From: a virus
Virus record (IMG/VR): IMGVR_UViG_3300044940_000357
Location: 1 to 63,963 of that record
Length of the DNA stretch: 63,963 nt
Direction: 5' to 3' (one strand)
Below, in pieces: positions 21,343-36,889 of the stretch (positions within the stretch are counted from its first letter, which is position 1; every line of letters begins with the position of its first letter). The notes beneath the pieces were generated by a model. That model was not told where the DNA came from, searched no databases, and worked only from the letters and a program-made list of their open reading frames with translations. The translations under genes and the position numbers were made by a program.

Positions 21343-21349
21343 ATGGGTA
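21328..21349 (+). promoter_or_regulatory. start-codon hairpin with AATTGAAGA loop (AAA+ gene)
   Basis: TATCC (21328-21332) pairs with GGGTA (21345-21349), one G-U, around loop AAAATTGAAGAT. The loop and stem contain the ATG at 21343-21345. A second, outer pairing ATTAATTTT with AAAATTAAT is possible. Closely matched by the hairpin at 24396-24420. Confidence 0.5.
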
Positions 21350-22467
21350 GAAAATTAATTAACGCCCTAGAATGCGAAAAGTATATACAACGTAAGCTTT
21401 TCGCATTCAACGCCGGCAAGACGCTGGCTAGGGCGTGGAACGCGGGGGAAAACGTTCTTCTTACTGGACCAGGTGGTTACGGTAAGACGGATGGAGCATA
21501 CTCTTTCTTTGAGTACCTCAAGTCTCAGGAAGCTATTATGGATGAAAATCCGTACATATTAGCTTTTGGACAAGGGATGACTGAAGAAAGACTCTTCGCT
21601 GGATTGGATATTAAAAAATTCCAATCAGAAGGGGAGTTAGTTTACAACCTTAAAAAGGCTTTTGTAAACTACGAGTATGTAATCTTTGAAGAATTGTTCG
21701 ATGCCTTTCCAGGCGTCTTATTAATCCTCAAAGATGTACTCCAATCGAAGAGCGTACGGTTAGGCGACACCGTATTCCCCTTGCGAACTAAATTTATAGT
21801 CGCCTGCACCAACCGTAGCAATGAGGAAGTCGCTACGGATAGAAGTACATGGGCCCTCTTGGAACGCTTTGTATTCCAGAAAGAGGTAACATGGACTTCG
21901 TGGGAAAAGTCTGACTACCTCTCAGCTTTCGAGGCAGCCACAGGCCAGAAAGCTGATGCCGTCATGGAGGCTGTGGCACGTATCGCTGCTGCCAGCAGCA
22001 AAGGTGAGATGAAAATATCACCTCGCACTGCTGGTAAAGGCCTAAAAGCGGTAAAACAAAACGGTAACGACATTACCGTTTTGGAAGATATTCTCGGCTT
22101 CGATAAGAAGTCCGTAAGAGAAGTCTTCACTGCTATGGAAGGCATAGCAGCAGACAAGACACAACGTGACCACGTAGCTGCGGTGGTTGCGTTATGTAAG
22201 CAGACAGCAGCTACTTCTTCGAATTCCGCCATTAAATTGGCGGTTGCCGCTAAACGAGTTCACGTAGAACTCGAGAAACTTAGCGGAATTCAACGTCGTG
22301 ATGCGAACGTTGAATTGTTCGAAGAAAGCATCATTGTCATAGAGAATCTGAGGGAGTCTCTATGGCAAAGAGCCAAGTCCCTTATTAACAAGCCACCAGT
22401 TGGCAGCTTGGCAGAGTTTATACAAAACTCTAGCACAAGCTCATTCGACTGGAGCTTGTTGAGATAA
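21343..22467 (+). CDS. MoxR-like AAA+ ATPase, hairpin-rich copy
   Basis: About 374 residues from ATG at 21343 (MGRKLINALECEKY), chosen because it aligns with the start of the paralogue at 34041. Walker A is TGPGGYGKT (about residues 41-49), Walker B YVIFEELFD (113-120), sensor 1 ACTN (154-157), then LLERFVF. MoxR-type ATPases work with VWA proteins to remodel or insert cofactors into partner proteins; the VWA partner follows. The gene is full of stems: 21371-21407 (11 bp) inside 21362-21436 (9 bp), 22057-22083 (11 bp), 22247-22286 and 22287-22316 (10 bp). The 34041 copy lacks these. Confidence 0.88.
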   Translation: MGRKLINALECEKYIQRKLFAFNAGKTLARAWNAGENVLLTGPGGYGKTDGAYSFFEYLKSQEAIMDENPYILAFGQGMTEERLFAGLDIKKFQSEGELVYNLKKAFVNYEYVIFEELFDAFPGVLLILKDVLQSKSVRLGDTVFPLRTKFIVACTNRSNEEVATDRSTWALLERFVFQKEVTWTSWEKSDYLSAFEAATGQKADAVMEAVARIAAASSKGEMKISPRTAGKGLKAVKQNGNDITVLEDILGFDKKSVREVFTAMEGIAADKTQRDHVAAVVALCKQTAATSSNSAIKLAVAAKRVHVELEKLSGIQRRDANVELFEESIIVIENLRESLWQRAKSLINKPPVGSLAEFIQNSSTSSFDWSLLR

Positions 22468-22538
22468 TCGTTAACCCAATCTCTTGGGTTTGACTTGCAT
22501 ATAAGGTTAATCGTAAAAGCAAGGTAGTTATAATTTTA

Positions 22539-22568
22539 TGGGGTTATGAAAAAAAGAACCATACCCCA
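22539..22568 (+). promoter_or_regulatory. hairpin sequestering the VWA start codon
   Basis: TGGGG-T-TATG (22539-22548) pairs with CATACCCCA (22560-22568): 9 bp with one bulged T and an A-rich loop. The initiating ATG (22546-22548) lies inside the stem, so folding would block translation. Confidence 0.5.
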
Positions 22569-23775
22569 CCATCTGTACGTTGAGCCTACGCGGCGAGACG
22601 TACAAGAAAGATTTAAGGAGTTAGGTTTTGATAAAACCTACTCTTATGATCTCGTACGGGATATTGCTAATGCGATGTCTCACGTACAGAATGGTGGGAA
22701 AGTCACTGACGCAATGACCAACGTCAGTGATTGGGTTCTTCCTTCTGACTATAAGTCAGAGAGGGAATATCAAAGAGCACTCTCGTATCACGAGAATGTT
22801 CAAAGATTTATTTCTTCTCTTGACTTTGACAAGTTCAGTGGCAATACTCCGCTTGCAAAAGCGGCAAGTGTTGTTGCTGCACTGTCTAGTCAAGAAGGGG
22901 GACAAGGCAGTGAGGGTGATGGTCAACCCTTGCCAATCTTCCGAGGTTCGTCAGAATCTATGGAAGAAAAGGCTAAAAAGTTGGAAGAGGCAGTTGATCA
23001 AACTGTCGAGGCTAACAAAAGCCTTGCGAGGTACATCATCAATCCTGATGAGTCCTCCCCAGAGGTGGCTCTCGCGACCTTGAACAGCGAGAATCGGGAT
23101 CTCTTAGCCAAGTTAGCGCTACTTGGTGACAGAGGTAAGATACGTTCACAGCGCACTTCTCCCACAAACAAACTCGCTCAAATGAGTGAGTATTCACAGG
23201 TGGGTCGTGTGAACGGTATGAGCAATGTCCTTCTTCCCACTTTCGGGTATAAATTTGCGACCAAGCAATTGGTTGTAAGAGAACCCGAACAATCAACAAG
23301 ACAAACCCTTGTCTTATTGATTGATAACAGCGGCTCTATGGACGAGACCGACAAATTAAGTTGGGTCAAAGCCATAGTAGTTGACAGACTAGACGCTGTC
23401 AGTAGGGGGGAAGCTGAATTGTACATCGGTTGGTTTGAATGTTCTCTCGACGAAGAGAACATTGTTAAAATTGCCAACAAAAAAGAAGCCATAGCTTTTT
23501 TACAAGAAGGCTTCTTGGGTAATTTTAACGGAGGCAAAACCGATGTGCAACGGGCCGTTGAACAAGTTTGCGAGGGAATCAAACTTGGAAGGCTCGGTAA
23601 TTATTCCCTCAACGGAGTTAAACCCCAAATCGTTGTAATGAACGATGGGCAAGACTTCGTTGACAGCAATTATAAACCCAGTGTTGTGACTCACGGGTTT
23701 ATCTTAGGGCGAGACAATGACGGAATGAAGTCAATGATCGCCAATTGCGGAGGTCACTATGAAAGATTTTTATAA
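22546..23775 (+). CDS. VWA-domain protein, hairpin-rich copy
   Basis: 409 residues. The C-terminal von Willebrand A domain has the metal-binding site LLIDNSGSMDE (DxSxS at about 260-264), GNFNGGKTD (Thr) and VVMNDGQDF (Asp). The N-terminal half is helical with an Asp/Gly-rich linker near residues 115-130. It pairs with the MoxR-like ATPase just upstream, as in known MoxR-VWA systems. Its closest relative in the window is at 35194, which has the same order, LIDDSGSM and GNFNGGGT. Gene-wide stems include 22622-22640, 22703-22730, 23173-23190 (with a G-U) and 23572-23610. Confidence 0.88.
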   Translation: MKKRTIPHHLYVEPTRRDVQERFKELGFDKTYSYDLVRDIANAMSHVQNGGKVTDAMTNVSDWVLPSDYKSEREYQRALSYHENVQRFISSLDFDKFSGNTPLAKAASVVAALSSQEGGQGSEGDGQPLPIFRGSSESMEEKAKKLEEAVDQTVEANKSLARYIINPDESSPEVALATLNSENRDLLAKLALLGDRGKIRSQRTSPTNKLAQMSEYSQVGRVNGMSNVLLPTFGYKFATKQLVVREPEQSTRQTLVLLIDNSGSMDETDKLSWVKAIVVDRLDAVSRGEAELYIGWFECSLDEENIVKIANKKEAIAFLQEGFLGNFNGGKTDVQRAVEQVCEGIKLGRLGNYSLNGVKPQIVVMNDGQDFVDSNYKPSVVTHGFILGRDNDGMKSMIANCGGHYERFL

Positions 23776-23983
23776 ATCTTTCTTTTCCCTATGCTCTACT
23801 AATAGGGATGTAAAACGATAGTAGCTGGAAGAAAACTACCCTACCTCAGGGTTATGTGACTATAAGGGTTAATGGGTGCGCTACCATTAGAAAAGTCACG
23901 CATATAAAAATCCTGCCATTGCAGGTTGAAACACAAAACCTTACCCAGTTTTGTGTGTATATAACTCATGGGTAATAAAGGAT
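23776..23983 (+). other. structured spacer between VWA and next gene
   Basis: Contains a 9-bp palindrome-like stem across the VWA stop (23760-23781), CCCTAT/ATAGGG, a GTGACT/AGTCAC stem with a nested hairpin, CCTGC-CATT-GCAGG, and the pseudoknot at 23931. No gene seen. Confidence 0.45.
23931..23975 (+). promoter_or_regulatory. candidate H-type pseudoknot before a start codon
   Basis: ACACAAAAC (23931-23939) pairs with GTTTTGTGT (23948-23956). The loop TTACCCA (23941-23947) is complementary to TGGGTAA (23969-23975), which lies eight bases before the ATG at 23984. The two pairings are topologically compatible as a pseudoknot and would occlude the translation start. Confidence 0.45.
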
Positions 23984-24229
23984 ATGGATAACTTTTTTCT
24001 TGAGTTGTTTATAGCAACTCAACAAGAAAGAATTCAATCCGAGGGATTGTTTTCTATCCTTTGCCGAATTGAAGAAGACAAGGATATGAAGAAAATCCCT
24101 TTCCACTCTCAAAAAGAGATGGAAGATTTCCTCTGGTTAAACAGAGGGAATTATCTATTCATCTCTTTGGAAGAGGCTGGGCTATTAATGTCCACCTCTC
24201 CGTTTGAGAACGGACTTGGATTGAATTGA
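23984..24229 (+). CDS. small protein following the AAA+/VWA pair
   Basis: About 81 residues from ATG at 23984 (MDNFFLELFIATQQE), preceded by AAAGG. It may correspond to the gene at 36551 that follows the other VWA copy: both have a Ser-Lys/Gln-rich turn and then an acidic helix (PFHSQKEMEDFLW versus IYFSSKDDFDVYI). A hairpin at 24055-24086 inside the gene has stem TATCCTT/AAGGATA and AATTGAAGA in its loop. Function unknown. Confidence 0.6.
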   Translation: MDNFFLELFIATQQERIQSEGLFSILCRIEEDKDMKKIPFHSQKEMEDFLWLNRGNYLFISLEEAGLLMSTSPFENGLGLN

Positions 24230-24413
24230 TTGGGGACCACCTGCACTAATCATCGGTGGGATATAAATAGAGGATTTTTTCTAACCATTCCGTTTTGTAA
24301 TATTACAAATAAAGGTTGAATCTGCGACAGGCATAGGGATATGTGCGAGTAATAGCAGAAGAGGAAGCCGAAAAGCTAAGTGAGTAGGCATTAATTATCC
24401 AAAAAATTGAAGA
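24230..24413 (+). other. structured spacer and leader
   Basis: Holds CCACC/GGTGG and GCATA/TGTGC stems and the palindrome TTGTAATATTACAA, followed by the third leader element and the start-codon hairpin of the next gene. No gene seen. Confidence 0.4.
24367..24389 (+). repeat. GCCGAAAA...GAGTAGGC leader element, copy 3
   Basis: GCCGAAAAGC and GAGTAGGC match the elements at 18332 and 18964; the centre differs. It ends 24 bases before the ATG at 24414. Confidence 0.5.
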
Positions 24414-24420
24414 ATGGATA
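24396..24420 (+). promoter_or_regulatory. start-codon hairpin with AATTGAAGA loop
   Basis: TATCC (24396-24400) pairs with GGATA (24416-24420); the loop is A-rich followed by TTGAAGAAT and contains the AT of the start codon, whose G is paired. TTAAT/ATTAA (24391-24395 with 24423-24427) extends it after a 2-base bulge. Upstream GCATTAATT and the loop are shared with 21319-21349. Confidence 0.5.
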
Positions 24421-24731
24421 TGATTAAGTCTTTATTTCCTCAGGTAGCCAAGTCTACCTTTGGAAAAAAAATGTTTAATCGCATAGCTCCCATTGTGGAG
24501 AAGCTGTGCGATGAAACATCGATGATCGCGATGCCCTCAATCGCAATGTTCCTGAGTTTCCATCCCGGAGCTTCTGCTCCGCAGCAGATGGTGTTTAACC
24601 ACCTTGCAGAAGTCGCACTGCAAGGCAACTGGAGGGTATTTGTTGCGACATATGGAGAACTTATTTCTCCTCTTGACCCGTTGGCTGTGTTGGGTCAGGA
24701 AGGAAGAAAGCAGTTCTTCCAGCCCATGTGA
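24414..24731 (+). CDS. unknown protein of the hairpin-rich segment
   Basis: 105 residues (MDMIKSLFPQVAKSTF), helical, with a hydrophobic centre (MPSIAMFLSFHPGASAP). Not recognised. Its stop overlaps the next GTG start (ATGTGA). Stems inside include 24480-24510 (9 bp with one G-U) and CGGAGC-TTCT-GCTCCG, and a CTTGCAG/CTGCAAG stem follows. Confidence 0.65.
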   Translation: MDMIKSLFPQVAKSTFGKKMFNRIAPIVEKLCDETSMIAMPSIAMFLSFHPGASAPQQMVFNHLAEVALQGNWRVFVATYGELISPLDPLAVLGQEGRKQFFQPM

Positions 24732-25078
24732 AACTCTACGTCCTTAACTCTGCGGTAATGCCAGAAGATGGTTATTATCGCAGAGTTAAGATAAGTAGAG
24801 AGAAGGCTTCCGAGATACTCAATACAGCCACAGAAATTGTATCTTCTGTTGGGTATCCGGAAGTTTGTCAAATAATATATGAAATATCAGGAGTTGTTGT
24901 TCCTCTTGATATTGAAAAGCGAGTAACAACATTTGCTGAAGATGAGTGTACTATATTAGTATGTAAACTTGTCTTCAGGGAAAAAGCAGAACGAAAAGGA
25001 GTTAATCGTCATACCGACATTAACGAATATGAGTTCTGCTTAGTTCATTATAAAAAAAATAACCCTTTTATCAAATAA
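24728..25078 (+). CDS. DUF1874 / AcrIII-1-like protein with altered active site
   Basis: 116 residues from a GTG overlapping the preceding stop. The pattern LYVLNSAV, YYRRVKIS, VSSVGYPEV, GVVVPLD and a final YEFCLV follows the DUF1874 (STIV B116 / AcrIII-1) family. Characterised members are ring nucleases that cleave cyclic tetra-adenylate and so block type III CRISPR signalling. The family's catalytic His lies in an IGH motif; here the position is Tyr (VGY, residue 43), so it may bind without cleaving or have another role. The gene opens with a 12-bp stem (CTTAACTCTGCG with its complement), and a 15-bp interrupted stem (24809-24866) follows. Confidence 0.62.
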   Translation: MKLYVLNSAVMPEDGYYRRVKISREKASEILNTATEIVSSVGYPEVCQIIYEISGVVVPLDIEKRVTTFAEDECTILVCKLVFREKAERKGVNRHTDINEYEFCLVHYKKNNPFIK

Positions 25079-25100
25079 ATAATAAAAGGGTTATTTTTTA
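25053..25100 (+). terminator. intrinsic terminator closing the hairpin-rich segment
   Basis: An A-rich stretch plus AACCCTTTTA pairs with TAAAAGGGTT plus T-run, up to 17 bp, overlapping the stop of the DUF1874 gene and ending in TTATTTTTTA. After this point the dense folding style stops. Confidence 0.75.
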
Positions 25101-25134
25101 ATTCATTCAAATCATAATCATTTATCATATTCAT

Positions 25135-25329
25135 ATGGAATTATATCCCGTAGTAGAATGCTTAACAAAAGAAGGAGCGTCATTTATTGTTTCTTTCTTT
25201 TGTGAAAAAGGTTTCGACTTCTACTTTGTATTTACAGGTAATAAGAAACCTTATCTTGTAGTTACAAACAAAGAAGGTCTAAAAGCTTTTGAGCAATGGA
25301 ATCATTCATTAGCAACAATTGTTCATTAG
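25135..25329 (+). CDS. small protein of unknown function
   Basis: 64 residues (MELYPVVECLTKEGASF), beta-rich with an aromatic FDFYFVF strand. Not recognised. Its 3' end runs into the first TTCATTAGCA repeats. The sequence is AT-rich without the dense hairpins found upstream. Confidence 0.55.
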   Translation: MELYPVVECLTKEGASFIVSFFCEKGFDFYFVFTGNKKPYLVVTNKEGLKAFEQWNHSLATIVH

Positions 25330-25392
25330 CAGGTTTCATTAGCAACTTATTCACTTTTCATTAGCAATTTTCATTAACATTTTTCATTAGCA
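25305..25392 (+). repeat. TTCATTAGCA short direct repeats
   Basis: TTCATTAGCA starts at 25305, 25322, 25335, 25357 and 25383, with a variant (TTCATTAACA) at 25370. Spacings are 17, 13, 22, 13 and 13 bases. The array ends 3 bases before the ATG at 25396. Could be a protein-binding array or a slippage product; the unit is not palindromic. Confidence 0.7.
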
Positions 25393-25395
25393 ATT

Positions 25396-25608
25396 ATGTA
25401 TCAAGTCACAAAAAATATAAACGGAGTCTATGCTGAGGCTACGTTTAAAACAAGAGAAGAGGCGTTGCGCCAAGCCACACGTTGGTTCGATTCCATGAAC
25501 ACTGATATTTCAGATTTATGCGGATCGTTCATTAGCCGTATTGTTAGCGGTAAGAATATAACTTATAGATTTCAAAAAGGATCATTAACAATAAGACATG
25601 AAAAATGA
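25396..25608 (+). CDS. small protein of unknown function
   Basis: 70 residues (MYQVTKNINGVYAEATFK). The pattern of a beta strand, then TREEALRQATRWF, resembles small phage proteins with a beta-alpha layout. It overlaps the next gene by 11 bases. Confidence 0.6.
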   Translation: MYQVTKNINGVYAEATFKTREEALRQATRWFDSMNTDISDLCGSFISRIVSGKNITYRFQKGSLTIRHEK

Positions 25609-25828
25609 AATTTATGGGTCTTTTTCGTTAATGACATTGACGGAAGAGGGAAAGTTGATTATAAATTTTCTATCAGACAATAACGAAAAGTTTATTGTTG
25701 AAATAGAATCTTTAATAAAAGAAGATGGTAGCGGAAGAAAATTTTTAATTAATCATAAAAGTGTAAACTCTATTAGCGGCTATGTTGACTTTGCTACTAA
25801 TAAAGGTTACATAAAAATTAAAAATTAA
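25598..25828 (+). CDS. small protein of unknown function
   Basis: 76 residues (MKNEIYGSFSLMTLTEEG), beta-rich. Not recognised. Overlaps the gene before it, so the pair is likely co-transcribed. Confidence 0.58.
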   Translation: MKNEIYGSFSLMTLTEEGKLIINFLSDNNEKFIVEIESLIKEDGSGRKFLINHKSVNSISGYVDFATNKGYIKIKN

Positions 25829-25833
25829 ATTTT

Positions 25834-25841
25834 TACTTTTG
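25834..25841 (+). promoter_or_regulatory. candidate -7 element before the tRNA cluster
   Basis: TACTTTTG matches the Bacteroidota TAnnTTTG consensus 33 bases before the first tRNA-like element. I see no clear -33 box. Confidence 0.3.
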
Positions 25842-25873
25842 TTGTTGTATTTTATAACAGCAAAGGTTTATTT

Positions 25874-25948
25874 GAGAACTCTTAACTCAATAGGTTAGAG
25901 TAACTGACTTATAAAGAGTTACAAGTTCAAGTTTTGTAGAGCTCACCA
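25874..25948 (+). tRNA. degenerate tRNA-like element with encoded CCA
   Basis: A D-arm (ACTC-AATAGGTTA-GAGT), a T-arm (ACAAG-TTCAAGT-TTTGT, one G-U), and an acceptor GAGAACT opposite AGAGCTC (5 of 7 pairs), then A and CCA. The anticodon arm has only three outer pairs around CTTATAA, which would give UAU (Ile). The variable region is almost absent. Possibly a decayed tRNA or a tRNA mimic. Confidence 0.45.
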
Positions 25949-25962
25949 TCAAGAATCAAATT

Positions 25963-26103
25963 AGAGGTGGCGCTGGATGCGCCTTGGATGCTGACAGGCG
26001 CGCGACTGTGCAGCATTGGTACTGGCAAGAAGCTGAACGACGGTTCAGTAGACGCTAGCAAAGGGCAGCTCCCTTGAGGCCGGTTCGATTCCGGCCACCT
26101 CTA
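25963..26103 (+). ncRNA. tRNA-like element with four-hairpin insertion
   Basis: The acceptor AGAGGTG pairs perfectly with CACCTCT, and the T-arm GCCGG-TTCGATT-CCGGC is canonical. About 109 bases lie between the 5' acceptor strand and the T-arm instead of about 42. They can form GGCGC/GCGCC, a 9-bp bulged hairpin around GCGCGCGA, CTGAAC-GACG-GTTCAG and AAGGG-CAGCT-CCCTT. No standard D- or anticodon arm is visible. It could be a tRNA with an insertion or a dedicated tRNA-like RNA. Confidence 0.5.
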
Positions 26104-26117
26104 CTTAAACAAACACA

Positions 26118-26191
26118 GGGTCCATAGCTCAGCCGGTTAGAGCATCTGACTCATAATCAGGGGGTCGCAGGTTCGAGCCCTGCTGGGCCCA
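26118..26191 (+). tRNA. tRNA with CAU anticodon (Met or Ile2)
   Basis: A full cloverleaf: GGGTCCA pairs with TGGGCCC, anticodon loop CTCATAA, T-arm GCAGG-TTCGAGC-CCTGC, discriminator A, no encoded CCA. The CAT anticodon fits elongator Met or, if the C is modified, Ile for AUA, an abundant codon here. Confidence 0.92.
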
Positions 26192-26232
26192 CAATCATTC
26201 ATTCACAAAAACCGCGACTGAGGCATCAGCAA

Positions 26233-26478
26233 ATGGATGGAAGTTCCTTTACAATTATGTATATGATAACGGTAGAAGTTTATGATTGTGAAAAAGGCAC
26301 TAATCGCTATGCGATAAAAGCTGCCAACTTCGAAGAAGCTGTTGAAAGATATGAAGATATCAAATCACGCATAGCTACAAACTGGACTCGCCATCCAGCA
26401 ATCACCGAAGAAATTAAACACCTCGATTGTACATACGATTCTTTTAATGAAGGTTGTATAATCGTTTCTCGTGTTTAA
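26233..26478 (+). CDS. small protein of unknown function
   Basis: 81 residues if the first ATG is used; MYMITVEVYDCEKG (26257) is an alternative start. Alpha/beta pattern with an acidic helix NFEEAVERYED. A CATTCATTCAC leader motif lies at 26193-26206, upstream. Confidence 0.58.
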   Translation: MDGSSFTIMYMITVEVYDCEKGTNRYAIKAANFEEAVERYEDIKSRIATNWTRHPAITEEIKHLDCTYDSFNEGCIIVSRV

Positions 26479-26485
26479 AGATATT

Positions 26486-26589
26486 ACCATCTATCGTTTA
26501 AGTAAGACGATTTGACAATCGCTTATAACAAAAATTGAAGATTATAAGCAATTGTTAAATAAATACAGGTTCGTATCCTGTTAGATGGT
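26486..26589 (+). ncRNA. tRNA-shaped element with long arm instead of anticodon arm
   Basis: ACCATCTA pairs with TAGATGGT (8 bp), a D-like arm is TCGT/ACGA, and the T-arm is ACAGG-TTCGTAT-CCTGT. In place of an anticodon arm there is a stem of about 11 bp (CAAT-C-GCTTATA with TATAAGC-A-ATTG). Its 15-base loop is ACAAAAATTGAAGAT, carrying the AATTGAAGA motif of the upstream segment. Confidence 0.5.
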
Positions 26590-26594
26590 CAATT

Positions 26595-26685
26595 AATCAC
26601 CTGAGTTTAAGAGATTCACCCTAAGGTAACTGACGTTAAACTTTTTGTCAGGAGAATAAGGTTATGACATAAGTCATAGGTGATT
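26595..26685 (+). ncRNA. cruciform tRNA-shaped element
   Basis: AATCACCT pairs with AGGTGATT (8 bp). Inside are CTGAC/GTCAG and ATGAC-ATAA-GTCAT. There is no canonical T-loop, so it is less tRNA-like than its neighbours. It fills the gap before the gene at 26709. Confidence 0.35.
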
Positions 26686-26708
26686 TAAGATTTTAAACTA
26701 TTTATCGC

Positions 26709-26930
26709 ATGAAAGTTTACGTTCACAGGTACCAGTTTGAAGGAGTATTAGTCGAGTTAATATTGCCTCATAACAATCTTATTGAAGTTGGTGACTTGAT
26801 TTCAATTGAAGAAATTGAAATTGAACCAATAAGAATAGAGCACGCAATCTTAGATGCGGTTGTCGTATATTTTTCTTATAGAGGCAAAGAAAGAAGTGTA
26901 ATCGTTGACAAATCAAATCTTGAAAAGTAA
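26709..26930 (+). CDS. small protein of unknown function
   Basis: 73 residues (MKVYVHRYQFEGVLVEL), beta-rich with an acidic EEIEIEPIRIE strand. Its stop overlaps the next ATG as TAATG, so the two are coupled. Not recognised. Confidence 0.6.
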   Translation: MKVYVHRYQFEGVLVELILPHNNLIEVGDLISIEEIEIEPIRIEHAILDAVVVYFSYRGKERSVIVDKSNLEK

Positions 26931-27181
26931 TGGAAGAAATAATCTTGGCGTTGTTAGACACTTGTCTAATCAGAGAACGCGACCCACGACAATTTCCAAT
27001 ATCAGAAGACACTATGTATCAATATAATATGCCTGAGCAATTATGCGATACTATTGTATCTATTGGTAAATATGTTGAACCGCAAACAGAAGCAGATCGC
27101 TATCGCGAAGCTGCAATTGGTAAAACATATATCGTTGACATTTATCAATTATACAATACAATCATTTCTCATGGAATTTAA
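26930..27181 (+). CDS. small acidic protein of unknown function
   Basis: 83 residues (MEEIILALLDTCLIRE), helical N-terminus. Coupled to both neighbours by overlaps. Not recognised. Confidence 0.58.
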   Translation: MEEIILALLDTCLIRERDPRQFPISEDTMYQYNMPEQLCDTIVSIGKYVEPQTEADRYREAAIGKTYIVDIYQLYNTIISHGI

Positions 27182-27578
27182 AGTTTTATTCACATCACCT
27201 AACGGTTACGCTGTCGATTTAAAAAAACAATCGTTTGGTTATAACCAATATGAGTTTGCCAAACGTTATGTAAATCCAATGGAACTCGATCCCCGTGTGG
27301 TTTTAGATTACATAGATGAGTTTAAAACTGATATTATCATAAACGTATGTGTAAGTAAAATTAAAGGATGTCTTTCATCTGTATTTTATGACACTACGTT
27401 TGTAAAAGTAATAGTTCCATCAGGAACATTGCGTCGGTATGTAAGTCTCATCCCTGTTGTCGAAAAACATTATGATCAAATAATCAGTATAACTTGGAGA
27501 TATCAAATCAATGATGACAATATATTAGATTCATGGTCATCAGATGGTTGTCCTTTATACTGGAATCCCATTAAATAA
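27171..27578 (+). CDS. protein of unknown function
   Basis: About 135 residues from ATG at 27171 (MEFKVLFTSPNGYAV). An earlier in-frame ATG would run through the preceding gene. Mixed alpha/beta, with a C-terminal WSSDGCPLYW segment. Not recognised. Confidence 0.6.
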   Translation: MEFKVLFTSPNGYAVDLKKQSFGYNQYEFAKRYVNPMELDPRVVLDYIDEFKTDIIINVCVSKIKGCLSSVFYDTTFVKVIVPSGTLRRYVSLIPVVEKHYDQIISITWRYQINDDNILDSWSSDGCPLYWNPIK

Positions 27579-27606
27579 TCATTCATTCACCTTAAATTTA
27601 AAAACC

Positions 27607-28206: not shown

Positions 28207-28210
28207 TATC

Positions 28211-28240
28211 AGTACGCCTCTTGAACAGAGGCGTACTTTA
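28211..28240 (+). terminator. intrinsic terminator
   Basis: AGTACGCCTC pairs with GAGGCGTACT (10 bp, loop TTGAACA), followed by TTAAA. Placed four bases after the stop codon. Confidence 0.65.
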
Positions 28241-28259: not shown

Positions 28260-28973
28260 ATGAAAAAGATTCGTAAGTTAAACAAAGAACTTTTTGAATT
28301 ATTTCAAAACAATAAATTCAAAAATAAAAATATCGATTATATTCAAATGCTCATTGATAGGTATCGGTCGATAGTTAATCCAGTATTCAAATTAGGTAGT
28401 TATGATTTTAATATAAATATATCATATCAATTTTTAGACAGTCGAGATATTAGAACAATAAAGTTATTAGTCGAATCATTTGAAAAAGAAATTAATCGGG
28501 TATATGATGATATTAAAGAAAGATATTATCAAGATATACTCGACTGGGGTAATCAATACAAATCGCCAAGATGGAATTTAGAAAATTTATACGCAATGGC
28601 TGATTATATATCAACTGTATCTCAGGAAGAATTTAATATAAGTGCCCCTCTCAATTATGATATAAAACACATCAAAGATGTAAAAGTAAAAGATGTTATT
28701 GGTCATTGTGTAGTAATCGATGATCAATTTAATTCTTTTCTTACCCAAAATAATTTTGATTTTCATCGATGGTGTGAAAACTTTACTGGTTTATCAATAC
28801 ACTGCCCAGAATGGATTTGGTGTTTTGGTTCACAATGGGCTAATACAGATAATACACCAATGGGCGCTGCTATAAGAATACTTTGGCTTATTGAGTGCGG
28901 TTTACCTAATAATTGGGAAGCACAAATGAACAATCAGGCACCTTTGTGTTACGAACAATTTTATGACATATGA
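28260..28973 (+). CDS. unknown protein with WCF-QWA-DNTP domain, long copy
   Basis: 237 residues. The C-terminal 120 residues are related to the next gene: IGHCVVIDD, F(H)RWCENFTGL, EWIWCFGSQWA, TDNTPMGAAIRILWLI, GLPNNW and LCY are shared. The N-terminal half is helical and unique. An IGHC...W...DNTP..AA.RI pattern occurs in small phage proteins of unknown function. The start follows an A-tract. It overlaps the next gene by four bases (ATGA). Confidence 0.68.
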   Translation: MKKIRKLNKELFELFQNNKFKNKNIDYIQMLIDRYRSIVNPVFKLGSYDFNINISYQFLDSRDIRTIKLLVESFEKEINRVYDDIKERYYQDILDWGNQYKSPRWNLENLYAMADYISTVSQEEFNISAPLNYDIKHIKDVKVKDVIGHCVVIDDQFNSFLTQNNFDFHRWCENFTGLSIHCPEWIWCFGSQWANTDNTPMGAAIRILWLIECGLPNNWEAQMNNQAPLCYEQFYDI

Positions 28974-29380
28974 ATAAAAAAAATCTTATTTCGATAGCTC
29001 GATACTTGCCTACAATAAGACAAGAAAATTTTGACATGTTAAAATTTAGGACTGGTGATAAGTCATCTCATGAGTGCAATTCAATAGGATGCGTCATTGG
29101 TCATTGTACAATATTAGATGACTACGAAAACATACCTCGTACACCTACAGGTCAAATAAATTTTCAATTATGGTCTGAAAAGTACACTGGTTTACCTATC
29201 GATAGTGAAGAATGGGCTTGGTGCTTTTCTGAACAATGGGCTCATTGGGGAACAGATAATACTCCCATTGGTGCAGCCAAGCGTATAATTTGGTTAATTA
29301 CCGAAGGACTACCTGAAAATTGGAGAGAACAAATTACAGGTGAAGATCCTTTGTGTTATACGAACATCGAAATATTTTAA
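28970..29380 (+). CDS. unknown protein with WCF-QWA-DNTP domain, short copy
   Basis: 136 residues, a tandem paralogue of the C-terminal half of the preceding protein (GHCTILDD, WAWCFSEQWAHWG, DNTPIGAAKRI, GLPENW, LCY). Conserved Trp, Cys and Asp suggest a folded core, but no reaction can be assigned. Coupled by an ATGA overlap. Confidence 0.68.
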   Translation: MNKKNLISIARYLPTIRQENFDMLKFRTGDKSSHECNSIGCVIGHCTILDDYENIPRTPTGQINFQLWSEKYTGLPIDSEEWAWCFSEQWAHWGTDNTPIGAAKRIIWLITEGLPENWREQITGEDPLCYTNIEIF

Positions 29381-29877: not shown

Positions 29878-30245
29878 GAAAGCAAGCGTTTTATATCATC
29901 ATGATTGTCATAACTATTTTTATGGCAGTTATTAGTTACGCGTCGGTTCCTCGATGGAATCTTAAATCTACTACTATTATCAATAATCACGACTCTATTG
30001 TGACATATAAAACGGTGTATGAAAATAAATCAACCGATAACGATACAGTAATTACTGTAGTATTTCAATTACCTCTTGGTATCAATCCAGTAAATGGATT
30101 ACCCGATCATAAATTTTCAGCTGTATATGTTAAATTTACTGTTCAAGGAGTAGTAACAATATATAGAAAAAGATTTAACGATCGATACAGAATAATTTCT
30201 TTTAGAAAAATGTCAGTAGAGGATTTAAAATTATTAATGAACTGA
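29874..30245 (+). CDS. exported or membrane-anchored protein, AT-rich paralogue
   Basis: 123 residues with a hydrophobic N-terminus (FYIIMIVITIFMAVISYA) that looks like a signal peptide or anchor, then a small beta domain. Weakly similar along its length to the protein at 19931, sharing a DxDTV strand and GxNPV. Both precede an AAA+/VWA pair, though at different distances. Function unknown. Confidence 0.65.
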   Translation: MRKQAFYIIMIVITIFMAVISYASVPRWNLKSTTIINNHDSIVTYKTVYENKSTDNDTVITVVFQLPLGINPVNGLPDHKFSAVYVKFTVQGVVTIYRKRFNDRYRIISFRKMSVEDLKLLMN

Positions 30246-30258
30246 ATCACAAAAAAAC

Positions 30259-30639
30259 ATGAAAAAAGGAGATTATGTAAAAACCAGTAAAAATAAAACT
30301 GGTATAATAAGATCAATAAAATTTATTGTTTACTCTTCTACCGACCCCGATGGAGAAGTTGATGTAAAAGAGATTAGATGTTTTGAAAACGAAACAGAAG
30401 GTTATACTTATATAACAAACCTTGAAAACGATAACCAAGATAGTAATATTTACTACCATATAAAAAAATCTATTATGGTTCAACTTGGTAGTAATGAATA
30501 TGAAATTGGAGAAAACCAATTAAGAACTATCGATTGGTTAACCATCACTATCCCATCGAGTTTTACTCTTGATATAAATAATGCTCGAGAGGTACTTGAT
30601 ATGTTATCAAGATATAAAATATATCACACAATTGATTAA
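30259..30639 (+). CDS. protein with KOW/SH3-like N-terminus
   Basis: 126 residues. The start MKKGDYVKTSKNKTGIIRSI has the GDxVxxxxxxxGxI turn of KOW/SH3-like barrels, followed by acidic beta strands. Such domains bind nucleic acid or proteins. No closer family seen. Confidence 0.58.
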   Translation: MKKGDYVKTSKNKTGIIRSIKFIVYSSTDPDGEVDVKEIRCFENETEGYTYITNLENDNQDSNIYYHIKKSIMVQLGSNEYEIGENQLRTIDWLTITIPSSFTLDINNAREVLDMLSRYKIYHTID

Positions 30640-30677
30640 TTATCAAATTGTTCATTCACCTTTTATTTACACAAAAA

Positions 30678-30944
30678 ATGAGAGTAGCACACGTTTATCA
30701 TCCAACAAAAGATCCCCAAGGCATGTATGAAATCAATAAAAAGCAAATATCGGGTACACGTAAAGTAAAATTATCCGAGGCTTACGTTGATTGGTACACT
30801 GTTACTGTTCATAAAGCTCAACTTATGGATCAAGATCTTGTAAGATTATTCTTTTATATTGGAAACCAAGAACAATCTTGCGTAGCGTTAAGCGATGAGT
30901 ACTTGAGATTAAAATCAACCGACGATGCGCCTATAACAAACTAG
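30678..30944 (+). CDS. small protein of unknown function
   Basis: About 88 residues from ATG at 30678 (MRVAHVYHPTKDPQG), after a TTCATTCACC leader and an A-rich stretch. Beta-rich. Not recognised. Confidence 0.6.
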   Translation: MRVAHVYHPTKDPQGMYEINKKQISGTRKVKLSEAYVDWYTVTVHKAQLMDQDLVRLFFYIGNQEQSCVALSDEYLRLKSTDDAPITN

Positions 30945-30947
30945 ATT

Positions 30948-31316
30948 ATGAAAAAGCTGATTTTATTATTAATGTTAGCGATAAGTTTTTCAACTTATGC
31001 GCAAACCCAAGACGTATTGAAAAACAAGACGTATGAAATGAAGATAGAAGATACTACTATAACTTGTTACAAAGTTATACGTAAGTATACTATCCCAAAT
31101 GATTACCGTCCTGTTTACATATACGTTTGGGCATTTGTTCCTGTATCGGCAGCAGAGACTATGAATAGTTATGATCTGTGGCCTTTTTCATTTGACATGA
31201 AAATACAATATTGGTATGGCGTCAAAGTAAAAAATCGTTGGGTAGAAGTTCCTATGGGTAATGTAAAAGACAGCGATTGGATAGATGTCAACCAGTACTT
31301 TCACGGAGAAAGATAA
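30948..31316 (+). CDS. secreted or periplasmic protein
   Basis: 122 residues with a clear signal peptide (MKKLILLLMLAISFSTYAQT, likely cut after Ala). The mature part is a small beta domain rich in Tyr and Trp (YWYGVKVKNRW). Early expression of an exported protein suggests action on the cell envelope; no function assigned. Confidence 0.7.
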   Translation: MKKLILLLMLAISFSTYAQTQDVLKNKTYEMKIEDTTITCYKVIRKYTIPNDYRPVYIYVWAFVPVSAAETMNSYDLWPFSFDMKIQYWYGVKVKNRWVEVPMGNVKDSDWIDVNQYFHGER

Positions 31317-31318
31317 AA

Positions 31319-31921
31319 ATGACAAAGTCACAAATCATTTTAGAGGTTGAAACGAGTGATTTTCAACCTCATTTTTCATTTACAGACGATATCGATTCTG
31401 TTATAGATGATATTAATCGTCCGCATGAAGATTATTTTCTTGGACTCAATGATAAAGTCAAAGAAATAATCCAACGTGAAATCGAATACGCTCAGTCAGT
31501 TGACGATTACTTTATAACTTTTGCAGATGTTTGTAATTGGCAAAAAGAATTGTTCTATTACAAAAAAGAAAAAATATATCAACTGCAAAATAATAGTGAT
31601 GACAAACTCAAAGAAAAAGCAATCGGGTTGCCAAATCAACATATTAATCTTGGTCTTAGACAAGTTAGTGTAAAAGTTGGTCGATGGACACCACCTGGGC
31701 CTATCTTTCTTGAAGAGTTAAAATCAATGAGCTTTCCTATTTCAGTTGAGATTGTAAAGTCTTTGTGTGATTTTGACGAAGATGTAATACTTTATCTTAC
31801 CGATTGGTATAAAATCTTTCAAACTATTCACATGTTTGAAGATTTCAATGGACGATTAGGAGGTATAGTAATTAACATACTGTCTTATATCGTAAACGGT
31901 CACTACCTTATTAGACTATGA
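31319..31921 (+). CDS. protein of unknown function
   Basis: About 200 residues from ATG at 31319 (MTKSQIILEVETSD), right after the preceding stop. Helical, charged centre. Its end overlaps the next gene by four bases. Not recognised. Confidence 0.65.
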   Translation: MTKSQIILEVETSDFQPHFSFTDDIDSVIDDINRPHEDYFLGLNDKVKEIIQREIEYAQSVDDYFITFADVCNWQKELFYYKKEKIYQLQNNSDDKLKEKAIGLPNQHINLGLRQVSVKVGRWTPPGPIFLEELKSMSFPISVEIVKSLCDFDEDVILYLTDWYKIFQTIHMFEDFNGRLGGIVINILSYIVNGHYLIRL

Positions 31922-32280
31922 GTATCAATGAAGAACAACTAAAACAAGTAGTACCTCATATGAATGAGGTACTACAGCGTTGGTCAGTACCGTACAACAT
32001 GAAGAATGTAAACGATACTATGAAAAGTTTTATTCTTGCATGTATTTATTATAATGACCGAAAGGAACATTATATAGCTAAAAGATTAAAAAAATCTTTT
32101 GATGTAAACTTAGATTTGACCTTTGATGGTAAAATCAAACAAGTTAATATCGTAAATCATTTGAAACCATTTGAGTTAGGTACTGCTTATGAAAGTATAA
32201 TTGATGCTTTACAAACCTTCTTTTCTTTTAAGATAGAAGAGCTTGATTATGAAAAAATTAATAGTATAACATTTCCATAA
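31918..32280 (+). CDS. protein of unknown function
   Basis: 120 residues (MSINEEQLKQVVPHMNE), helical. Coupled to the previous gene by ATGA. The 5' part carries a GTAGTACCTCAT/ATGAGGTACTAC inverted repeat (31949-31973), unusual for this AT-rich region. Confidence 0.62.
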   Translation: MSINEEQLKQVVPHMNEVLQRWSVPYNMKNVNDTMKSFILACIYYNDRKEHYIAKRLKKSFDVNLDLTFDGKIKQVNIVNHLKPFELGTAYESIIDALQTFFSFKIEELDYEKINSITFP

Positions 32281-32286
32281 ACCATT

Positions 32287-32670
32287 ATGACAGAAGAAAA
32301 AAAGTTTTATGATGCTTTAGCCAAGTTAGATGCTATTATGAAAGGAACACTTAATCGTAAAGATAAAGTAAATTCCGACTCATTAAATAGCATTGTTGAT
32401 CAATTGATCGCGGAACAACAACAAGCTGTAGCTGAAAAGGTAAAAGAACATCTTAGACAACTTGTAAAAGCAAAAGCAGACTTTGACAAAGTAATGAAAG
32501 AAGAAGAAGACAAGTTGAAAGCTCTAAGAGAAAAGAAAATGAAGGAGTTTGTTTCATCTGTTCAAAAGCTTCAATCTATGATAGAAGATGTTTCAAAAGT
32601 AGAAGACAGTTATAAAAGTACTGTAGAAGCTATTTCAAAAGAACAACCAGAAGATAATACTGAAAACTAA
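32287..32670 (+). CDS. coiled-coil protein
   Basis: 127 residues, almost entirely charged helix (VAEKVKEHLRQLVKAKADFD, then KALREKKMKEF), predicted coiled coil. Not recognised; such early proteins often bind a host complex. Confidence 0.65.
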   Translation: MTEEKKFYDALAKLDAIMKGTLNRKDKVNSDSLNSIVDQLIAEQQQAVAEKVKEHLRQLVKAKADFDKVMKEEEDKLKALREKKMKEFVSSVQKLQSMIEDVSKVEDSYKSTVEAISKEQPEDNTEN

Positions 32671-32690
32671 TCACTTAAAAAATTAATCAC

Positions 32691-32894
32691 ATGGAATTAT
32701 TAATAATAGGAGCAATAGTATTAATATTAGCATTATTGTTCGTAGATGCAAGAGACATTCTTTATTGGATAAGAGCAACAGCTTTTATCGCATTGTTATT
32801 ATTTCTCGTAGCAGACATTAGCAATTTCATCATATATGTTATTTTATTTGGTACGGTTATTTACGTATCTACTATTTTGTTAAAAACAGTATAA
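32691..32894 (+). CDS. small membrane protein
   Basis: 67 residues with two or three hydrophobic segments (IIGAIVLILALLFV, AFIALLLFLVADI, VILFGTVIYVSTILL). Probably an inner-membrane protein. Role unknown. Confidence 0.6.
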   Translation: MELLIIGAIVLILALLFVDARDILYWIRATAFIALLLFLVADISNFIIYVILFGTVIYVSTILLKTV

Positions 32895-32897
32895 ACG

Positions 32898-33116
32898 ATG
32901 ATAATTGTAGAATGGGAAGTATTATCAAAAGAAAAAGAATGTCGTAGTTTTTATTCATGGGTGTCAGCTTGGGCGTACTTCCGTTCATTATTTAATCGAT
33001 GGAACGAAATAGTTCCATCGATTAAATATATCATTAACGATGATGCTATTTTCATTATGTATCAAGATGGTTATATATCGTTAAAATTAAATCATAACGA
33101 AAAAGCATTAACATGA
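32898..33116 (+). CDS. small protein of unknown function
   Basis: 72 residues (MIIVEWEVLSKEKEC). Contains an 18-base inverted-repeat-like stretch around 32996-33024 (TTTAATCGATGGAAC ... GTTCCATCGATTAAA). Overlaps the next small ORF. Not recognised. Confidence 0.55.
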   Translation: MIIVEWEVLSKEKECRSFYSWVSAWAYFRSLFNRWNEIVPSIKYIINDDAIFIMYQDGYISLKLNHNEKALT

Positions 33117-33205
33117 TAAAGTTTATCCAGGAATACAATCAACGCTTATACCAAAGTAAAGTCAATAATCAGAGGTTGGATCGAAAACAATTATATCGAT
33201 TATAA
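33113..33205 (+). CDS. 30-residue basic peptide
   Basis: MIKFIQEYNQRLYQSKVNNQ plus a short basic tail. The ATG overlaps the previous stop (ATGA), which is the main support. May be a chance frame. Confidence 0.3.
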   Translation: MIKFIQEYNQRLYQSKVNNQRLDRKQLYRL

Positions 33206-33285
33206 ACTTGTTTTAATCTACGGTGAAGGTTAATTGGTTTAGTAACCAAGTAAAAATAATTATCCACAAAAAAAAAACAATCTGT

Positions 33286-33816
33286 ATGAATAATTTAGAA
33301 GTAGCTGTATTACTAAAAATATTAAAAGCTATAAAATCAAATATCGATCCTCTTGATATTATAAAAGAGATGTGTTTAAAAATGGCTAAGTTTTATGCTC
33401 TGATCAGAGACATTGAAGACAGTAACGATATTGTTTTACCAAAAGAATATATTGAGTTAATGTATGTTATGTATAAGATAAAAGAAAATCTCGACTTGCC
33501 ATGTTTTGACACATCTCCTGAGGCTTGTGATGATAATCCTCCTAGACTATTATCTGATAGTATGATTAGATTTGGGGGTATATTGCTATTACAACAACAA
33601 GAAGAAGAACAACAACAAGAAGAAGACAAAAGCGTTGATAACCAATATCAAAAATATATTGATGCTGCTTTAAAAGTACAATTTATGAATTTGATATGCG
33701 CTGTCGATTCTAATAGTATTAGTACCGATACTATTACAAACATTATGATACAAGTAAGAACTTTCAAATCCATGGGATTTTCTCGGTTAATGTATACAAA
33801 AGAACTATTTGAATAA
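33286..33816 (+). CDS. protein with Gln/Glu repeat, unknown function
   Basis: About 176 residues from ATG at 33286 (MNNLEVAVLLKILKA); an upstream GTG at 33223 is possible. Helical, with a low-complexity QQQEEEQQQEE tract encoded by CAA/GAA runs (33590-33630). Directly upstream of the AAA+ module. Not recognised. Confidence 0.62.
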   Translation: MNNLEVAVLLKILKAIKSNIDPLDIIKEMCLKMAKFYALIRDIEDSNDIVLPKEYIELMYVMYKIKENLDLPCFDTSPEACDDNPPRLLSDSMIRFGGILLLQQQEEEQQQEEDKSVDNQYQKYIDAALKVQFMNLICAVDSNSISTDTITNIMIQVRTFKSMGFSRLMYTKELFE

Positions 33817-34038
33817 ATGATTGAAGCAATACTTGATATTAAATTAAAACTTGGTATAGCTTACGCATATATCATTTATTTAGAAGAAGATGAAATTAAA
33901 ACATGGTTAATTGAAGAGTATTCTAATAAAGATAGAGATGTCTCATCCGACTGCATGATCTTGTTTACTAAAGAATATACTCAATTATCTTATAATGTTT
34001 TGCTATCAAATCAAATCTTTAATTTTAAAACTTTATAA
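33817..34038 (+). CDS. small acidic protein before the AAA+ gene
   Basis: 73 residues (MIEAILDIKLKLGIAYA). Starts immediately after the previous stop and ends two bases before the AAA+ ATG, so it is probably in the same operon. Not recognised. Confidence 0.6.
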   Translation: MIEAILDIKLKLGIAYAYIIYLEEDEIKTWLIEEYSNKDRDVSSDCMILFTKEYTQLSYNVLLSNQIFNFKTL

Positions 34039-34040
34039 TA

Positions 34041-35207
34041 ATGACAAAGATAAATCTCACAGAACTACAAAATTATTTTAATGAACGCATGTATGGTTTT
34101 GATGCCAAAATATTTGGTATTGCTTGGAATAGTAATCAAAATGTATTACTGACAGGTCCAGGTGGATATGGTAAAACATACAGCGCTCAATTATTTTATG
34201 ATTTTTTAGTACATAAAGGTATATTTCCAGAAGGTAGTAAACCTTTCGTTCAATCATTAAATCCCGATACTACCACTGAAAAAATCTTTGGCGGTACTAA
34301 TATTAAAGAATTTACCGAAAACGGAGCTATGGTTTATAATTGCCATAATAGCTTTGCTAATGCGCCTTTTGTTATCTTTGAGGAGTTTCTTGACGCACCA
34401 TCATCTTCTTTGATGGCTCTTAAAGACGCTCTTACTTCTGGATATGTCAGAGATGGTCTTTATACCTATGAGGTAAAAACAAAGATGATAATTGCTTGTA
34501 CTAATCTTTCAGCAGATGAATTTGCGGAAGATGACGCTACACAAGCTTTATTAGAGCGTTTTAGATTTCAAATGGTTGTGCGATGGAACGGTCATACAGA
34601 AGACGATTATATAAAGTCCTATGAAATAGCAACTGGTAATAAAGGAGACGATATCATTGTTAAAGCAGTAGCCAATGCGGCAGCTGCTTCTTACGGTGTA
34701 GGCGGAGATCGTCCAGTAAGTCCTCGTACTTATATGACAGCGGTTGAAGCTTGTAAAGGATGTGATAAAGATATAGATCCTTTGACTCCGTTGTATTATA
34801 TGGATTATCCTGGTGGGTTCAAACCAGCAGCTGTTAAAACTGCTAGCGCTAATCTTGCAGCTTTAAGAAAAGTTATGGAAGATCTTGAAAGATTAGCCAA
34901 TTATCAAAGCATGTGGGATACTTATAAAGAGAACTTTAAGACTACGGCTAAAACTATTAACGAAGAAAACTTAATCAAGTTATATAATATGGCCGCTAAA
35001 CTTAAAGAAACTTTAAGCGAGGTCTCGCTTATTAAAGTTACAGATAACGCTTTACCTAACTATCGTAAACTTCTTAGTAGCTATAAAAGTTTATATACTA
35101 GTTGGTATGAGTTTATCGCAAATAAAGTTAAAGAAGACCCATCAATTACTAACGAAAATCTTTTAAAATTATCCAATAGTAGTGTTGAAAGATATGAATT
35201 CAATTGA
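34041..35207 (+). CDS. MoxR-like AAA+ ATPase, AT-rich copy
   Basis: 388 residues. Walker A is TGPGGYGKT (about 38-46), Walker B FVIFEEFLD, sensor 1 ACTN, then LLERFRFQM. It aligns with the protein at 21343 over most of its length, including NxNQNVLLTGPGGYGKT, and adds a C-terminal helical tail of about 25 residues. The coding sequence is AT-rich and lacks the dense inverted repeats of the other copy. It overlaps its VWA partner by 14 bases. By family, it would remodel a substrate together with the VWA protein. Confidence 0.88.
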   Translation: MTKINLTELQNYFNERMYGFDAKIFGIAWNSNQNVLLTGPGGYGKTYSAQLFYDFLVHKGIFPEGSKPFVQSLNPDTTTEKIFGGTNIKEFTENGAMVYNCHNSFANAPFVIFEEFLDAPSSSLMALKDALTSGYVRDGLYTYEVKTKMIIACTNLSADEFAEDDATQALLERFRFQMVVRWNGHTEDDYIKSYEIATGNKGDDIIVKAVANAAAASYGVGGDRPVSPRTYMTAVEACKGCDKDIDPLTPLYYMDYPGGFKPAAVKTASANLAALRKVMEDLERLANYQSMWDTYKENFKTTAKTINEENLIKLYNMAAKLKETLSEVSLIKVTDNALPNYRKLLSSYKSLYTSWYEFIANKVKEDPSITNENLLKLSNSSVERYEFN

Positions 35208-36567
35208 GCCTAGAGTGATTAAACACAGCTCATATGATTATCTTTCCGATAGCTTAATCAACGCCCGCTTTGATGGAGTGGGCGTTGTTGAAGCTAAAAG
35301 AGAGAAAATGAGCTACGATCTAATAAGAGATCTTGCATATTATCACAGTTACTTTTTCATGGGAGAAGACCCTAAAAAAGCATTGATAGATGCACATACT
35401 GCTTATAAAAGAGAAGACTTCAATAGCGATGAAGAGTATTGGGAGCGTATAGCTTATCACAATAATATTATCAATTTTATAAGAGATATAAATATCAACA
35501 TATTTACAGGTAATACTCCAGCCCAAAAAGCGGCATCGGTAATGTTGTCTATTTTAGCAATGGATAATGAAAAAGATAATAGTGAAAAAAATGGCGCTAT
35601 GATGGACTTCTTTAAACCTACCGATGAAGAAATTGATAAAGCTAAAGAAGGAAAATTAAACGATAGCAGAGAAATCCCTACAGAAACAAAGAAGAATAAT
35701 AAAGAAAGTGTCAATGGTAGTGGTGTTGGTGGACAAGGAAGGGCTGATAGAGTTACTTTACTTGAAGACTATGTTCATACTACAATCGATTATGCTATCG
35801 ATAGTCCTATTGCAAGTGAATATTTTAATACCACTACTACTAACGGAGAATTGGCTTTATTTAATATGACTAATGAACAAAGAATATTAATAAACCAACT
35901 TTCCATTGTTTCTTCTATGGGAAAACTCAATACTAGAAAAAAGAGACCTGGTAAATGCTATGGTTTAATGAATGACATAGGTGATATAGTACACGCTTCT
36001 CCACGATCTCAGTTATTATCTCCTATACTTCCTATAAAATTAATAGAGAAGACCCTTACCACTAGTAAATCAAAACAAGGAGGAAAGCAAATACTTATAT
36101 ATCTTATTGATGATAGTGGGTCAATGAGCGTTATAGAAAAAGTACGTTGGGTTAAAACTTTGATGATTAATCGTCTTGATGCTGTAGCAAAGAATAAAGC
36201 AGAATTATATGTAGCTTGGTATATAGAAGATATTATACCTAAGTCAATTATTCATATTAAGAATAAAGCACAAGCAATAGAATTTTCTAAAAAACAATTC
36301 TTTGGCAATTTTAACGGAGGTGGTACTAATATAGCAAGAGCTATTAAAAGTACTGTTGATAGCATCAAAAGTAATAACTTTTACGGTAACCCTATTAAAG
36401 GTGTAAATCCTCAAATAGTCTTGATTAACGATGGTCAAGATTTTATAGATAAAAATTACGAAGTAGGTAAGGGAATTACACTTAATAGTTTTATTTTAGG
36501 GGGTGATAATAAAAACTTAGAAATTGTTACACGAAGATCTGGAGGGACTTATGTTAGATTCTTATAG
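35194..36567 (+). CDS. VWA-domain protein, AT-rich copy
   Basis: About 457 residues from ATG at 35194 (MNSIEPRVIKHSSYD). The VWA metal site is LIDDSGSM, then GNFNGGGTN and LINDGQDF. It shares WVKxxxxxRLDAV, NTPxxKAASV and the C-terminal LGxDN motif with the protein at 22546. The linker in the middle is longer and Lys/Asp-rich. Partner of the AAA+ protein before it. The phage thus carries two MoxR-VWA pairs. Confidence 0.88.
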   Translation: MNSIEPRVIKHSSYDYLSDSLINARFDGVGVVEAKREKMSYDLIRDLAYYHSYFFMGEDPKKALIDAHTAYKREDFNSDEEYWERIAYHNNIINFIRDININIFTGNTPAQKAASVMLSILAMDNEKDNSEKNGAMMDFFKPTDEEIDKAKEGKLNDSREIPTETKKNNKESVNGSGVGGQGRADRVTLLEDYVHTTIDYAIDSPIASEYFNTTTTNGELALFNMTNEQRILINQLSIVSSMGKLNTRKKRPGKCYGLMNDIGDIVHASPRSQLLSPILPIKLIEKTLTTSKSKQGGKQILIYLIDDSGSMSVIEKVRWVKTLMINRLDAVAKNKAELYVAWYIEDIIPKSIIHIKNKAQAIEFSKKQFFGNFNGGGTNIARAIKSTVDSIKSNNFYGNPIKGVNPQIVLINDGQDFIDKNYEVGKGITLNSFILGGDNKNLEIVTRRSGGTYVRFL

Positions 36568-36889
36568 CGATTACGTTACTCCTAAAATATTAGAACAAGT
36601 AAATATACTTACTGCTCTTTTAAAGATATTAAGTAATCAATATTATTCTATTATATCTAAAAGAGTTTATCACGATAATGAAGAAACGTATGAAACAGTA
36701 ATATATTTTTCATCTAAAGATGATTTCGATGTATATATAGCTTCCCATACTGGAATATACGCAGCTGCATTTCGTGATAAAAGTGGTATACTTGTTATTA
36801 ATAAAGCTGATTATTATCAAGTTTTAGATTTTAAAACTGTCAGTACCAAATCATTTCGTTCTTTGTTTGAAACTATAATATTAAACTAA
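36551..36889 (+). CDS. small protein following the AAA+/VWA pair
   Basis: About 112 residues from ATG at 36551 (MLDSYSDYVTPKILE), overlapping the VWA stop by 17 bases. It may be the counterpart of the gene at 23984, judging from position and a weakly similar FSSKDDFDVYI segment. Could be the substrate or adaptor of the ATPase; not shown. Confidence 0.58.
   Translation: MLDSYSDYVTPKILEQVNILTALLKILSNQYYSIISKRVYHDNEETYETVIYFSSKDDFDVYIASHTGIYAAAFRDKSGILVINKADYYQVLDFKTVSTKSFRSLFETIILN

Follow-up and report, generated by a model that had tools for sequence, protein, structure and literature searches.

Two paralogous gene pairs, each encoding a MoxR-type AAA+ ATPase and a VWA protein, were found in the genome of a gut-type phage of the Crassvirales, and only one of them, pair A, is saturated with predicted RNA hairpins, as part of an early zone in which coding and spacer RNA alike are predicted to be folded. 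We consider it probable (roughly 0.6) that the two pairs diverged anciently and that pair A is styled by its position in an early zone selected for folded mRNA, not by an RNA style of its own; imposition of the style by position, and not its import together with the module, is the most likely explanation. The analysis was performed on a 64-kb stretch of DNA (63,963 nt; hereafter the window) from virus record IMGVR_UViG_3300044940_000357.

The phage was assigned to the Crassvirales by its terminase (phrog_6681, E 7e-69) and portal protein (phrog_6547, E 1e-56). Its best named relatives belong to the Crassvirales, with which its terminase shares 25-33% identity. A near relative, G001 (IMGVR_UViG_3300044941_000276, 105,641 bp), has a terminase identical to that of the window and a backbone of about 98% identity. 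Outside the regions described below, two adjacent open reading frames at 28260-29380 resemble tandem paralogues and have TDNTPxGAAxRIxWLIxxGLPxNW in common.

Module A consists of an ATPase gene (21343..22467, with the ATG at 21343 assumed as start codon) and a VWA gene (22546..23775), and module B of an ATPase gene (34041..35207) and a VWA gene (35194..36567), all on the plus strand. The paralogy of the two modules proposed in the sequence-only reading was confirmed, with 41% identity between the ATPases across 254 aa (E 8e-58), 30% between the VWA proteins across 455 aa (E 4e-74), and motifs invariant in both. Both ATPases scored above the cut-offs of the Pfam profiles PF20030 bpMoxR (34.7 bits for A and 36.1 for B; cut-off 27) and AAA_5 (27.5 and 34.9 bits; cut-off 22). 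The VWA protein of module A fell just under the cut-off of VWA_2 (26.9 bits; cut-off 27), and profile search gave no Pfam match for that of module B. By motif, GPGGYGKT was assigned as Walker A (P-loop), CTN as sensor 1, LLERF as the arginine finger and SPRT as sensor 2, all invariant in the four ATPase sequences; Walker B reads VIFEE in both copies, with glutamate in place of the aspartate of the DE ending. The MIDAS residues (D306xSGS, T378 and D413) are intact and invariant in the VWA copies, which lie next to the ATPase gene. Judged by these residues, both pairs look catalytically intact, and they look non-virion, being situated apart from the block of virion genes.

Both pairs are present in the window and in G001 alike, the copies of module A being 95-97% identical between the two genomes and those of module B 98-99%, so that the duplication or double acquisition that gave rise to A and B must be old. 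Relatives of the VWA proteins were found neither among 50,697 phage records nor among 46 other viral records and about 415 Bacteroidota genomes; since this leaves no outgroup for the VWA proteins, the tree of the modules cannot be rooted. DUF805b-bearing viral records, too, yielded no relative of the VWA proteins. The MoxR-VWA pair was not found in the other Crassvirales records searched, and therefore does not belong to the core functions of the order. The solved structure nearest to the ATPase is RavA (E 7e-4, residues 30-176), and the VWA protein had no detectable similarity to solved chains; pentatricopeptide matches in the structure library were judged to be low-complexity chance.

The suggested kinship of the genes around the modules was not confirmed. 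The small genes that follow module A (23984..24229, plus strand) and module B (36551..36889, plus strand) gave no alignment with each other, and the match between the exported proteins at 19931 and 29874 is limited to the signal peptide and its immediate downstream residues (E 1e-4), their mature parts giving no match (E 0.11). No Pfam match was obtained for the neighbours at 23984, 36551 and 24414, and neither a beta propeller nor an effector, which would be the third component of a MoxR-vWA-beta-propeller ternary conflict system, was found among them.

The two sequence styles noted earlier are real insofar as only pair A is hairpin-saturated and G+C-richer, but the style reaches beyond the module. 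From G+C content, fold z and synonymous shuffles, a hairpin-saturated, G+C-rich and putatively promoter-proximal early zone of about 7.4 kb was delimited at 17700..25100 on the plus strand, beginning just past the divergent junction (17.3-17.7 kb) and containing nine genes and their spacers. It is closed at 25054..25099 by an 18-bp hairpin, identified from the fold list and the sequence, with an A-run before and a T-run after it, which is terminator-like on both strands and is missing from the consensus scan because its 10-base loop falls outside the limits of that scan. G+C content is 0.43-0.45 in the zone and about 0.30-0.31 outside, with a sharp step at both borders; for the ATPase and VWA genes it is 0.46 and 0.45 in module A versus 0.34 and 0.32 in module B. 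At third codon positions G+C is 0.45 in the zone, as compared with 0.22 for module B and 0.21 for the remaining early genes, and first positions are less different.

Folding was expressed as z scores. The mean per 150 nt is -3.3 to -4.9 at about 18.0-25.5 kb and +0.3 to -1.9 elsewhere (about -4.5 to -4.9 for module A and about -1.3 for module B), and only the early side of the divergent junction is affected, the late side not. When synonymous codons were shuffled with protein and codon usage kept, the zone genes gave z of -3.9 to -12.4, with -11.2 for the ATPase and -12.4 for the VWA gene of module A; outside the zone the values were -1.7 and -3.0 for the corresponding genes of module B and -0.5 for the DNA polymerase, and one gene reached -3.9. 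G+C content alone was ruled out as the cause of folding, as both dinucleotide and synonymous shuffles preserve composition. The spacers are folded like the nine genes. Per 100 nt the zone (-2.79) is slightly more strongly folded than the RNAs of MS2 (-2.38) and Qbeta (-1.91). Neither stable tetraloops nor A-rich loops were found as a signature of the zone, and its loops have no consensus. No account of such zones was found in the open literature searched.

In addition to module A and the small gene after it, which was included in the synonymous test, the zone contains on the plus strand a first gene of 94 aa (17750..18034; 75% aa and 66% nt identity to G001), a gene lying between DUF805b copies and absent in G001 (18429..18848; synonymous z -5.8), a gene of 86 aa (19022..19282; -5.0), a gene with a signal peptide (19931..20344; -8.4), a gene of 105 aa (24414..24731; -5.1) and a last gene of 116 aa (24728..25078; -6.8). 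About 950 nt at 20380-21330 hold no plausible gene, are folded throughout and may contain a non-coding RNA. DUF805b RNA (RF02914) was detected on the plus strand at 18333..18369 (46.4 bits) and, ahead of gene 19022, at 18965..19003 (43.7 bits); a DUF805b-like copy ahead of gene 24414 (24358..24390, plus strand) scored 32.1 bits, under the cut-off of 35.6. With these three copies in the window zone and four in a second phage, G002, several lie directly before start codons. At 18369-18990 the window has, and G001 lacks, a gene preceded by a separate DUF805b leader; the breakpoints lie within the DUF805b element, as though cassettes of leader and gene recombined at the leader. As a general mark of folded zones DUF805b was ruled out, mean z near its sites being ordinary (-0.6); at one such locus, L133, a short region with a fold z of -4.6 lies about 3 kb from the DUF805b site. 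The sequence AATTGAAGA occurs in 11 exact copies versus 2.1 expected. It or its core was seen in hairpin loops at 18309, 19362, 20998, 21335, 24067, 24405 and 26533, and directly at a start codon twice, at the module A ATPase gene and at gene 24414. Downstream, a tRNA/tmRNA-like structure in which an acceptor stem and a T arm enclose a long folded insert was noted at 25963-26106 (RF00023, E 5e-5, below cut-off), with a degenerate tRNA ahead of it at 25876-25945.

Mismatches in stems and the state of translation starts bear on which molecule is selected. On the coding strand, G-U mismatches outnumber A-C in the window (15 vs 8) and in G001 (23 vs 6), where about 4-5 of each are expected, and in G002 (13 vs 0). 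Single changes between alleles gave 117 G-U and 59 A-C in coding-strand stems, the relation being reversed on minus-strand folds (76 G-U and 105 A-C; the P value of 7e-6 is too small, as the counts pool the structures of both alleles and are not fully independent). Within 25 bases spanning the start codons, the unpaired fraction is 0.61, a value reached by 0 of 5000 random sets, versus 0.445 at random zone positions. Coding sequence in the zone is as paired as non-coding sequence. The coding-strand excess of G-U over A-C, together with the open starts, points to translated mRNA, and not DNA cruciforms, as the molecule under selection.

Overall foldedness is maintained and individual hairpins are replaceable. 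Between the window and G001 the first zone gene, at 66% nt identity, has folding energies of -78 and -79 with only 3 of 79 pairs in common, and the exported-protein gene has energies of -170 and -171 with 69 of 129 pairs in common; in a further pair of diverged alleles 53 of 77 pairs are common. Real zone alleles fold better than alleles in which the same codon changes were redistributed within the gene (z to -8.3), and such redistribution in module B caused no such loss of energy. The first gene of G002 and its relative G004 provides an independent replicate: its two alleles have 58% nt identity and 5 of some 150 pairs in common, and both fold strongly (z of -6.1 and -4.4); a gene farther downstream gave no effect.

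Similar zones were met in a few other Crassvirales. A scan for DUF805b RNA led to G002 (IMGVR_UViG_3300033999_000053), a member of the Crassvirales with a layout like that of the window, and a scan of 80 terminase loci gave G012 (IMGVR_UViG_3300026519_000014); both zones were thus picked from many loci, and they are weaker than that of the window. The first early genes of G002, several of them headed by DUF805b, have a G+C content mostly of 0.34-0.39 and z to -7.9; the first gene of G004 has a G+C content of 0.45 and z of -7.5, fading downstream; several early genes near the junction of G012 are at z -4.7 to -6.9; and a fourth locus, L270, has a weaker zone. At locus L255 (G002), terminase and portal genes at 2767-7040 are split into several frames and the early genes are intact, possibly owing to stop-codon recoding in late genes. 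The zones of G002 and G012 are placed as in the window but lie over unrelated genes, and no similarity to the window's zone proteins was found for those of G002 and G004. The style thus goes with the place, recurring at the same early position in other lineages. A zone common to all Crassvirales was ruled out: crAss001 and cr116_1 showed none, nor did the part of MT835470 that was covered, and few of 60 Crassvirales loci have one, so that it does not answer a general need.

These observations would be accounted for if early mRNA as such were selected for folding. Pair A would then be promoter-proximal in a rightward early region beside the divergent junction, where genes and spacers would be written as short back-to-back hairpins, largely through the choice of synonymous codons and with the translation start regions left open. 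Early genes meet host RNases and RNA-targeting immunity first, and folded early mRNAs may resist cleavage by either at the onset of infection, since folded bodies with open starts would still be translatable and would expose few single-stranded targets. The folding would most likely serve to protect early mRNA against nucleases or RNA-targeting defence, though faster elongation, fewer R-loops or slower decay would fit equally well. The limits assigned to the early transcripts are putative. We suggest, tentatively, that in several Crassvirales selection on foldedness itself keeps promoter-proximal early mRNA folded from end to end, that the folding shields the transcripts of a DNA phage from host RNases or from RNA-targeting immunity, and that incoming genes, one of the two MoxR-VWA paralogues among them, are rewritten synonymously.

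The earlier reading had offered two origins for the style of module A, acquisition from a donor that shares the RNA style or reshaping, and reshaping is the better option. Acquisition of module A, or of the whole island, from a phage or element using this style, with B as the resident copy, would agree with the sharp G+C step at both borders, with the DUF805b-bounded leader-gene cassette that differs between the window and G001, and with zone alleles several of which differ by 20-34% between genomes on a backbone 98% identical, a difference that indeed indicates exchange of DNA between the zone and outside sources. A donor is nevertheless not needed, and we regard this origin as unlikely, because the style takes in every one of the nine genes together with the spacers, is met again in other Crassvirales at the corresponding position over different genes, and is still maintained in both genomes while base pairs turn over; nor was a donor with a related VWA protein found in the records searched. 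Pair A may also have been taken from the homologous early zone of another phage.

It is less likely still that the hairpins arose at the level of DNA or mutation, as palindromes created or maintained by template switching, or because single-stranded or cruciform DNA is needed close to an origin situated at the divergent junction. The stems are overwhelmingly Watson-Crick, with 139 perfect 7-mers against 9 expected, both strands fold nearly equally well and the zone adjoins the junction, all of which would suit such an origin; the excess of coding-strand G-U over A-C, both static and in substitutions, the sparing of translation starts and the restriction to the early side of the junction speak against it. 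The DUF805b elements, a tRNA, the long non-coding stretches and the recurrence of AATTGAAGA in loops could suggest instead a succession of specific RNAs, regulatory or catalytic, that overlap genes. With many pairs unconserved between diverged alleles, no loop consensus and coding sequence no less paired than non-coding, we hold this to be very improbable.

Each pair is most likely an ATP-driven remodeller, a role suggested by the intact motifs and the location outside the virion genes, with a VWA subunit that would select, early in infection, a partner complex different from that of the other pair. As the pairs are placed in the early region away from virion genes, they would be expected to remodel early complexes, of the host or of replication, and not to assemble tails or capsids. 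A DNA phage that limits folding to promoter-proximal early transcripts, with folding constant while pairs turn over, would indicate that RNA is under strong pressure when infection begins, and paralogous modules inside and outside the zone form a natural internal control for such pressure on a gene.

MoxR AAA+/VWA pairs of viruses are exemplified by orf66/orf63 of Bacillus phage 0305phi8-36 (PMC2147016) and by an archaeal virus MoxR-vWA tail-assembly system to which PMC7159879 refers. The modules described here resemble such pairs in the adjacency of a MoxR-type ATPase gene and a partner gene, taken as a chaperone-like remodeller, but differ in that the phage has two diverged pairs, both outside the virion block and with no detectable VWA sequence relatives in 50,697 phage records. 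RavA-ViaA of Escherichia coli is comparable in that RavA is the nearest solved structure to the phage ATPase, whereas the phage VWA partner lacks detectable similarity to a solved chain; to our knowledge, a respiratory target is neither known nor expected in a phage. DUF805b RNA is widespread in Bacteroidota and their phages, mostly at sites without hairpin-saturated surroundings, whereas here it heads early phage genes within such a zone. Genome-scale ordered RNA structure (GORS) is a property of RNA viruses, and the coding RNA of MS2 and Qbeta is folded; the zone is alike in that its coding RNA is pervasively folded beyond composition and codon content, and unlike in that it occupies about 7.4 kb of a dsDNA phage and not a whole RNA genome.
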